A program made the translations under genes and the position numbers. A stretch of DNA of 64,000 bases. Source: Azospirillum sp. TSH58. GTDB taxonomy: Bacteria; Pseudomonadota; Alphaproteobacteria; Azospirillales; Azospirillaceae. The stretch spans positions 396,501-460,500 of the forward strand of contig NZ_CP022364.1 of the NCBI RefSeq assembly GCF_003119115.1, read 5' to 3'. This document shows positions 4,756 through 6,744 of this stretch, one piece after another. The notes beneath the pieces are model-generated. The model saw only the letters and a list, made by a program, of their open reading frames with translations, ran no database searches and was not told the origin of the DNA. Within the stretch, counting starts at the first letter, position 1. Each line of letters starts with the position of its first letter.

Positions 4756-5043
4756 TCAACGGGTGCGCGTCGCCTTCCAGGCACCGGAGCGTTCGGCACC
4801 GGCGGCGATGCGGCGGTCGGCGATCTCCGATTCGTCCACCTCGGCGATCCCGGCGTGCTTCAGGGCGCGCAGGAGCACGCTGCGGACGGTCGTTCCCTCC
4901 TCCTCGGCGCGGCGGCGGACGGCGCGCTTGACGCTCTGCGGCACCATGGCGGCCAGCTGCACGTCGGGTTCGCGTCGGTCCGACGGAGCCGGATTGGCAT
5001 TGGACGGGATGGTGTGGACGGGTCGGAGGGGGTGGTCGCGCAT
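4756..5043 (-). CDS. Ribbon-helix-helix type small DNA-binding protein (95 aa)
   Basis: A 95-residue protein. Residues about 27-66 fit a ribbon-helix-helix unit: a short strand (DVQLAAMVPQSVKRAV), a basic helix A (RRRAEEEGTT) and helix B (VRSVLLRALKHAGI). The 'V(P/D)..(L/V)K..(L/V)...A...G.(T/S)(V/I)R..(L/V)' spacing is typical of CopG/Arc-like folds. The first 25 residues and the basic tail (WKATRTR) look disordered. It lies 58 bases upstream of, and on the same strand as, the large hybrid kinase, so the two could be co-transcribed. A near-palindrome just upstream of its start (5058-5080) is a good candidate for autoregulation. The family is assigned from pattern only; an antitoxin or partition accessory role is possible, but no toxin gene is adjacent. 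Confidence 0.7.
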   Translation of the reverse strand: MRDHPLRPVHTIPSNANPAPSDRREPDVQLAAMVPQSVKRAVRRRAEEEGTTVRSVLLRALKHAGIAEVDESEIADRRIAAGAERSGAWKATRTR

Positions 5044-5057
5044 CGGTCCTGCCGTAC

Positions 5058-5080
5058 ATGGTTCGAACGTACGAAACCAT
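5058..5080. promoter_or_regulatory. 23-bp imperfect palindrome, candidate operator of the RHH gene
   Basis: The outer arms ATGGTT (5058-5063) and AACCAT (5075-5080) are exact inverted copies around an inner segment that contains CGTACG. The element ends 15 bases upstream of the start codon of the ribbon-helix-helix gene at 5043, where an autoregulator would block transcription or translation. The repeat is seen directly; its use as an operator is inferred. Confidence 0.5.
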
Positions 5081-5092
5081 CCCCGCTTATAG

Positions 5093-5108
5093 TTAATTTC
5101 TTGTTAAC
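5093..5108. promoter_or_regulatory. CtrA-type site, TTAA-N7-TTAAC
   Basis: TTAA at 5093-5096 is followed after exactly seven bases by TTAAC at 5104-5108, which matches the alphaproteobacterial CtrA consensus TTAA-N7-TTAAC. It sits 50 bases upstream of the RHH gene (minus strand) and 155 bases upstream of the FAD protein gene (plus strand). It lies in a short AT-rich patch that stands out from the surrounding GC-rich DNA. The match is exact; occupancy by CtrA is inferred. Confidence 0.5.
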
Positions 5109-5262
5109 CATAAATCCCGCGGCGGTGCCAGGGGTTTATCCTACGCCGGAATAGCGGTTGACCTGCACAATCCTGCACCGAACAGTGGCCGGCCGGGCCT
5201 TCCGGCGCCAGGGCACCGGATCACCGCCCCTTTCGAACGGCCAGAGCAGAGGAGCGACGACG

Positions 5263-6744
5263 TTGTCAGCACGCCCTTCGAAACGCCGCATCGCCATCAT
5301 CGGGGCCGGCTTCACCGGCAGCGTCCTCGCCGCGCACCTGATGCGCTGCGCCGATGAGCCGACCAGCCTGCACCTGATCGAACGCACGCCCAGCGTCGGC
5401 GCCGGGCTCGCCTACTCCACGCCCAACGCCGCGCATCTGCTGAACGTGCGCGCCTACAACATGAGCGCCTATCCCGACGACCCGCGGCACTTCCTGCGCT
5501 GGCTGTGGGCCCGGGACGACGGGGCACAAGAGGATGGGGCGCAAGACGGCGGGGCCGGAGCGGTGCCGCCCAGCGGCCACGCCTTCGTCTCCCGCGCCCG
5601 CTACGGCGCCTACATCCAGGACGTCCTGCGGGAGGCCGTGGCCGCCGCCCCGCCCCACGTCTCGCTCACCGTGTCGCAGGCGGAGGCGGTGGACATCGCG
5701 TCGGACGCGCGGGGCACCCGGCTGCGGCTGGGCACCGGGACCAGCCTGTCGGTGGACACCGCGGTTCTGTGCGTCGGCAACTTCGCCCCCTCGCCGCCGC
5801 CGGTCCCGGCGCCGGAGGTCTACGCCTCCAGCCGCTATGTGGCCTCGCCCTGGGATTGGCCGGCGCTGGCCACCATCGCCCCCGACGCCCCGGTGCTGAT
5901 CCTGGGGACCGGGCTGACCATGGTCGACACCGTCCTGTCGCTGGAGGACCAGGGGCACCGCGGCCCCATCCTCGCTTTGTCGCGCCGCGGCCTGCTGCCC
6001 CAGACGCACCAGGAGGTGCGGCCCTTCAAGAGCTTCATCCACCCGCAGGTGATGCCGCGCACCGTGCTGGACGTGATGATCGCCCTGAAGGCCGATGTCC
6101 GCCGCGCGCGGGAGACGGGGTTCGACTGGCGGTCGGCCTTCGACGCGCTGCGCCCCTACCATCACCTGATCTGGAGCCACCTGCCGCTGGAGGAGCGGCG
6201 GCGCTTCCTGCGCCACGTCCGCCCCTATTGGGAGGTCCATCGCCACCGCATCGCGCCGGAGGTGGCGGCCCGCATCGCCGCCCTCTGCGCGAACGGCCGC
6301 CTGACCATCCGCGCCGGCCGCCTGCAGACGCTGACTCCCGTCCCGAACGGGGTGGAGGCGACGGTCCGCGCCCGCGGGGCGGAGGGAACCGTCTGGACCC
6401 GGACGGTGGGGGCCATCGTCAACGCCACCGGCACCGAATGCGATTTCAGCCGGATCGGCCATCCGCTGGTGAAGGCGCTGCTGACGCGCGGCCTGGCGCG
6501 GCCCGACCCGCTGCGGCTGGGGCTGGACGTCACGGTGGACGGCGCCCTGATCGGCGAGGACGGTCAGGCGTCGGACCGGCTGTTCGCGCTCGGCCCAATC
6601 AGCCGGCCGCCCTTCTGGGAGATGACCGCGGTGCCCGAACTGCGCAGCCAATGCGCCCAGGCCGCCCGGCACATCGCCCAGCTGCGGCGGCCCGCCTACC
6701 CTCTGGCGGAGCTGTCGCTGCTGCGCGCGCGGGCGGTGCCATGA
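5263..6744 (+). CDS. FAD/NAD(P)-binding protein (NAD_binding_9-like)
   Basis: A 493-residue flavoprotein if started at the TTG at 5263, which has an AGGAG box eight bases upstream; an ATG at 5158 in the same frame would add 35 poorly conserved-looking residues. Right after the start comes a dinucleotide fold (IAIIGAGFTGSVLAAHL, GxGxxG), then a FAD-contacting acidic strand (LHLIERTPSVGAGLAYS). A second Rossmann-type turn follows near residue 205 (VLILGTGLTMVDTVLSL), and a late segment reads LFALGPISRPPFWEMTAVPELR. This two-fold layout belongs to the FAD-NAD(P)-binding PF13454-type proteins. They are often described as putative oxidoreductases or hydroxylases, with YdhS as an enterobacterial relative. 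The substrate is unknown. It stands alone, convergent with the cupin gene. Confidence 0.8.
   Translation: MSARPSKRRIAIIGAGFTGSVLAAHLMRCADEPTSLHLIERTPSVGAGLAYSTPNAAHLLNVRAYNMSAYPDDPRHFLRWLWARDDGAQEDGAQDGGAGAVPPSGHAFVSRARYGAYIQDVLREAVAAAPPHVSLTVSQAEAVDIASDARGTRLRLGTGTSLSVDTAVLCVGNFAPSPPPVPAPEVYASSRYVASPWDWPALATIAPDAPVLILGTGLTMVDTVLSLEDQGHRGPILALSRRGLLPQTHQEVRPFKSFIHPQVMPRTVLDVMIALKADVRRARETGFDWRSAFDALRPYHHLIWSHLPLEERRRFLRHVRPYWEVHRHRIAPEVAARIAALCANGRLTIRAGRLQTLTPVPNGVEATVRARGAEGTVWTRTVGAIVNATGTECDFSRIGHPLVKALLTRGLARPDPLRLGLDVTVDGALIGEDGQASDRLFALGPISRPPFWEMTAVPELRSQCAQAARHIAQLRRPAYPLAELSLLRARAVP

Follow-up and report, generated by a model that had tools for sequence, protein, structure and literature searches.

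Locus layout and gene products

The DNA that we consider here lies between two divergently oriented genes of Azospirillum sp. TSH58, in a 64-kb window (the whole stretch of sequence that was analysed). On the minus strand there is a gene for a small protein resembling the Arc/CopG ribbon–helix–helix (RHH) proteins, followed by a gene for a hybrid sensor kinase; on the plus strand there is a gene for an FAD-NAD(P)-binding protein (Table 1). The RHH-like reading frame is present, at 4756–5043, and 14 bases separate it from position 5058, where the first of the sequence elements described below begins. A second conserved block, which includes TTGACC, occupies positions 5140–5190 upstream of the FAD gene and is probably that gene's own promoter.

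Table 1. Coordinates of genes and sequence elements at the RHH–kinase locus, and of the box before a paralogous kinase gene. Positions refer to the window unless a locus is named.
Feature	Position	Strand	Basis or remark
RHH gene (Arc/CopG-like ribbon-helix-helix), 95 aa	4756..5043	-	ATG at 5043; open reading frame, homologues, weak structural matches
Hybrid sensor kinase gene, 1121 aa	1332..4697	-	Starts 58 nt after the RHH stop codon; Pfam domains
CtrA-type box TTAA-N7-TTAAC	5092..5108	both	Sequence, conservation
Candidate RHH operator ATGGTTCGAACGTACGAAACCAT	5058..5080		Core dyad TTCG-N6-CGAA at 5062-5075
Likely ribosome-binding site AGGA	5047..5050	-	Inferred from sequence
Predicted transcription start, RHH–kinase operon	5066..5070	-	From sequence and the geometry in excerpts of PMC4287350
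Divergent FAD-NAD(P)-binding protein gene	5263..6744	+	Pfam NAD_binding_9; start codon inferred
Box before the paralogous kinase gene	L048:2003-2018 (G000:C2:1406502)		Relatives L116-L127

The 95-residue product displays the strand–helix–helix sequence pattern that is typical of RHH proteins. Searches of Pfam and NCBIfam reached no RHH family, and a profile search of PDB sequences, made with an alignment in which one row (L069) was mis-cut, reached the RHH protein AvtR only at an E value of 0.49. A structure model calculated from 15 sequences has a mean pLDDT of 69.6, rising to about 90 over residues 31–70; helices 36–49 and 53–63 are well predicted and the single-chain model contains no strand. 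The top 11 rows of a Foldseek search with this model are all RHH proteins (Arc, AvtR and VapB), with E values above 1 throughout; CopG, TacA and CdbA appear lower in the list, and unrelated proteins are also among the matches. The best Z score in the structural comparison was 3.8. We regard an RHH fold for this product as weakly supported by the model.

The gene is patchily distributed. Matches to the protein occur in 35 of 82 genomes of the family (E values up to 0.001), 18 of them strong, which we define as an E value below 1e-30; all 18 strong loci fall within the 45 genomes of the genus that were searched, so that 18 of 45 carry a strong copy. Across the class, 10 of 385 genomes gave a match, the nine besides the genome of the window itself at 4.6e-13 or weaker. 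Five loci of these nine genomes were inspected over about 3.2 kb each and TTAA-N7-TTAA was absent from all five. The weaker class-wide loci were therefore left out of the comparison.

The kinase carries HAMP, PAS-repeat, HisKA, HATPase and REC matches in Pfam, together with a dCache-like match of 40 bits that lies below the cut-off of 45. Its C-terminal part resembles NahK/ErcS, with a score of 339.2 for NCBIfam NF041832, below the curated cut-off of 400. The likeness to the NahK/ErcS' hybrid sensor kinases (NF041832, NF041831) covers the HisKA–HATPase–REC part (E value 2.9e-101); what sets the window kinase apart is the dCache-like sensor, the HAMP domain, several PAS matches and the RHH gene that precedes it.

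In each of the 18 strong Azospirillum loci the RHH gene is followed by what looks like the start of a kinase gene. The gap between the RHH stop and the kinase start, 58 nt in the window, ranges from 35 to 79 nt in other loci, and at L009 and L010 a hairpin lies within this gap. In eight of the 18 the RHH gene is directly followed by a long open kinase frame (the window genome, G009, G011, G030, G038, G043, L064 and L070). Pfam also identifies kinases downstream of the RHH gene at L066, L067 and L068. The exception is a metagenome-assembled genome (MAG) of the Rhodospirillales (L065/L085), where an RHH copy with an exact, equally spaced box in front of it has no kinase gene behind it. At this locus an outer repeat, ATGGTCG/CGACCAT, flanks the operator region.

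The CtrA-type box

The preliminary description had reported an exact TTAA-N7-TTAAC motif, and it is present as TTAATTTCTTGTTAAC at 5093–5108 of the plus strand. The box also reads on the opposite strand, shifted by one base, as TTAACAAGAAATTAAC at 5092–5107. This is the sole place in the window with TTAA-N7-TTAAC; in 100 dinucleotide shuffles the pattern occurred 0.00 times on average.

That description had made its reading depend on conservation of the sites between strains, and conserved they are. The box occurs in 18 of the 18 strong loci of the genus, with varying letters in the N7 spacer and always 63–65 nt from the ATG of the RHH gene, and three of four further loci carry it with no mismatch or one. 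Among the latter loci, L085, from the Rhodospirillales MAG, has an exact box 64 nt before the RHH start codon; L066, of the same genus as L085, has a box with one mismatch at 63 nt, and L086, from Arenibaculum, one with a single mismatch at 62 nt. The proportion of shuffles reaching one mismatch or fewer at 60–67 nt was at most 0.00085 (0.085%). At L068, an RHH–kinase copy from a different Azospirillum genome, the box is absent. Sixteen of the loci share the same divergent neighbour, and over these all nine fixed positions of the box and four of the seven N7 positions are invariant, against 58 of the 182 other intergenic positions (box versus other, Fisher p = 5.6e-5, a value that ignores relatedness).

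Two features expected of a CtrA-dependent promoter are found here, namely a full TTAA-N7-TTAA motif in the window and a CtrA encoded in the same genome. The CtrA orthologue (G000:C5:1375888-1376565) is 72% identical over 226 residues to the Caulobacter CtrA sequence, and its DNA-binding part is nearly identical to that of the Caulobacter protein. The CtrA query gave 119 matches in the genome; after the orthologue there is one full-length match at 41% identity, the others being at 38% or less. Near both ends of contigs G000:C1 and G000:C5 there are response-regulator matches with the same score and frame length, a sign that these may be circular replicons whose overlaps were left untrimmed.

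With the N7 spacing the genome contains 25 strand hits at 20 places, compared with 11 hits for the reversed control; the corresponding values are 4 (reversed 7) for N6 and 4 (reversed 9) for N8. We considered proximity to gene starts as further evidence for CtrA. According to a crude gene finder, 18 of the 19 N7 places outside the window have a promoter-like location, as do five of seven control places (seven of eight were examined; the eighth adjoins an N7 place in L058). Since the control spacings fall in such locations too, the promoter-like location adds nothing and this line of evidence was dropped.

Two of the other boxes were followed through the genus. One precedes a CheZ-like gene (Pfam) and is kept in six of 13 loci and missing in seven. 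The other is a TTAA-N7-TTAAC about 100 nt upstream of the gene for a paralogous kinase with dCache, HAMP, PAS, HisKA and HATPase domains (Pfam); it is kept as TTAA-N7-TTAA in 12 of 13 loci, with strongly diverging N7 letters, and the 13th (L128, in G015) shares just 35% identity and is perhaps not orthologous. A CtrA box as a general trait of this kinase family was rejected, none of eight further paralogue loci having a box within 400 nt. At L052:2089-2104 (G000:C2:2374088) a TTAA-N7-TTAAC lies between convergent predicted genes and is not obviously in a promoter.

The candidate operator

A 23-bp palindrome had been described at 5058–5080, and this claim has to be qualified. An outer repeat, ATGGTT/AACCAT, and an inner dyad, TTCG-N6-CGAA, are present in ATGGTTCGAACGTACGAAACCAT, but a perfect palindrome is ruled out by direct reading: six of the 11 pairs match in the odd register, and the inner dyad is centred half a base away from the outer repeat.

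On its own, TTCG-N6-CGAA is ordinary in the window, with three occurrences against 1.14 expected and at least three in 11 of 100 shuffles. The dyad is significant because it is conserved and because its extended form is unique genome-wide. TTCG-N6-CGAA is found in 16 of the 18 strong loci of the genus and differs by a single change in the other two, L009 and L010, where CTCG replaces TTCG. At L018 direct reading gives a perfect GGTTCG-N6-CGAACC dyad. Over the 16 loci with the same neighbour, 14 of 21 operator positions are invariant (p = 0.002, relatedness ignored). The extended 21-bp pattern has one exact match in the genome, the next best having two mismatches, and this uniqueness fits a dedicated autorepressor. 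Repressors of the Arc/CopG type bind repeats in their own promoters, and the RHH gene has such a dyad in its own promoter region.

The 45 genomes of the genus were also searched for the box and dyad together, without reference to any gene; the combination occurs in 17 genomes, once in each, and the reversed control once in all 45. All but two of the 18 strong loci are among the 17 places, and the remaining place is in G040 (L141:4500-4700; G040:C77:78500). There, the two elements lie ahead of a frame that starts like the RHH gene and is without the RHH domain; the next frame is that of a kinase without most of the sensor part.

Proposed regulation of the putative RHH–kinase operon

Our preferred reading, which we hold with moderate confidence, is that 5058–5108 is the promoter of an RHH–kinase operon, activated by CtrA and repressed at its start site by the RHH protein itself. 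Phosphorylated CtrA would bind TTAA-N7-TTAA and recruit RNA polymerase, and leftward (minus-strand) transcription would begin near 5068. The RHH protein would be made first, bind the TTCG-N6-CGAA dyad over the start region and repress its own operon, thereby limiting the output of both RHH protein and kinase. Each of these steps, from binding and activation by CtrA to the binding of the RHH protein, the start point and co-transcription, is predicted from sequence. For the start site we drew on Caulobacter ctrA P2, where according to excerpts of PMC4287350 a full motif lies 39 bp upstream of the start and is thought to activate. The start is placed near 5068, inside the dyad, because the box was set 39 nt upstream of it as at P2. 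Direct reading of the window sequence gave no convincing -10 hexamer at the predicted spacing. The inference of the preliminary description, that the small DNA-binding gene, perhaps together with the kinase gene, is under CtrA control and self-regulation, finds support in the comparative evidence. Against the operon model we note the missing -10 hexamer, the weak support for an RHH fold and the patchy distribution of the RHH gene, and further that the dyad is imperfect, with CTCG for TTCG at two loci, that L068 is without a box, that L065/L085 is without a kinase and that the cheZ box is missing in seven of 13 loci.

The arrangement can be compared with established systems. In motif and spacing the box resembles the full CtrA sites (TTAA-N7-TTAA) of Caulobacter crescentus and those of the Rhodobacter sphaeroides fla2 system (excerpts of PMC4287350 and PMC6180460); the near-identical DNA-binding part of CtrA and the nearly fixed distance are further points of likeness, and the location would be compatible with a -35 region. 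The difference lies in the putative target, an RHH gene with a hybrid kinase, a kind of target that did not come up in the literature searches on RHH with CtrA or with hybrid histidine kinases. With the Arc/CopG repressors the locus shares the strand–helix–helix pattern, RHH proteins as best, if weak, structural matches, a dyad in the gene's own promoter and a unique extended candidate operator. In contrast to them, the window protein is outside the Pfam and NCBIfam families and has N- and C-terminal extensions, and it is followed by a sensor kinase and not by a toxin, phage or plasmid replication gene.

The alternative that fares best, possible but unlikely in our estimation, accepts CtrA control and holds that the dyad is not the RHH operator: it would belong to the core promoter or be bound by a different regulator, with the RHH protein acting elsewhere or on the kinase. 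RHH binding is a prediction, and conservation would be expected in any case of the predicted start region, with which the dyad overlaps; moreover, G040 has retained the dyad ahead of a frame that has lost the RHH domain. A core promoter, however, needs no dyad symmetry, and at L018 the symmetry is perfect. The uniqueness of the extended form in the genome is also what would be expected of a dedicated autorepressor.

We think it improbable that the main target of the box, or a second one, is the divergent FAD-NAD(P)-binding gene. The motif is exact on both strands, and a precedent for one CtrA site common to two divergent promoters is provided by fliF2–fliL2 of R. sphaeroides (excerpts of PMC6180460). 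Yet the distance from the box to the FAD start varies between 155 and 213 nt over the 16 loci with that neighbour, whereas the distance to the RHH gene is steady. Nor does the box depend on the neighbour: it stays in other genera and at loci whose RHH gene has no FAD gene upstream (L063 and L064; likewise L017 and L018, where the dyad stays as well). In addition, the FAD gene has a conserved sequence of its own closer to its start.

Binding of the TTAA box by an OmpR-type regulator other than CtrA appears less probable still. Several more distant CtrA relatives are encoded in the genome and one of them (C4:399186) has a box upstream, but there is a single gene in which the CtrA DNA-binding part is almost unaltered, and the N7 spacing with TTAA halves agrees with the full CtrA motif given in excerpts of PMC4287350. 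That an ordinary AT-rich promoter matches the consensus by accident is very hard to credit: the motif is short, AT-rich and intergenic, as are the control spacings in their location, but its fixed letters are kept in every strong locus of the genus while N7 varies, the N7 spacing is in excess genome-wide and the box distance is nearly fixed across three genera.

An extension of the CtrA-activated, RHH-autorepressed operon can be imagined in which the kinase, switched on by CtrA, would feed back through its receiver or phosphotransfer to CtrA itself or to the CtrA phosphotransferase, the RHH protein on the CtrA-activated start site would turn kinase expression into a pulse, and the paralogous kinase with its own conserved box would form a second branch. 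We consider this feedback doubtful.

The CtrA homologue of Rhodospirillum centenum, which belongs to the Azospirillum clade, influences encystment according to excerpts of PMC4340629, and an effect on swarming is announced in the title of a paper cited there. Excerpts of PMC2877005 contain nothing specific to the RHH–kinase locus. Literature searches combining RHH with CtrA, RHH with hybrid histidine kinases and CtrA with Azospirillum returned, among the matches listed, no description of an RHH–kinase module; for CtrA with Azospirillum, no title or opening of an abstract among the matches listed announces CtrA binding or start-site data. The parts of the locus are all of known kinds, and their combination is one that was not met in the literature searched.

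To our knowledge, most studies of CtrA concern bacteria other than Azospirillum. The conserved locus would link CtrA to an uncharacterized sensor kinase and a probable repressor, and as such it presents a directly testable target. In addition, 20 candidate full CtrA sites are now available for one Azospirillum genome.
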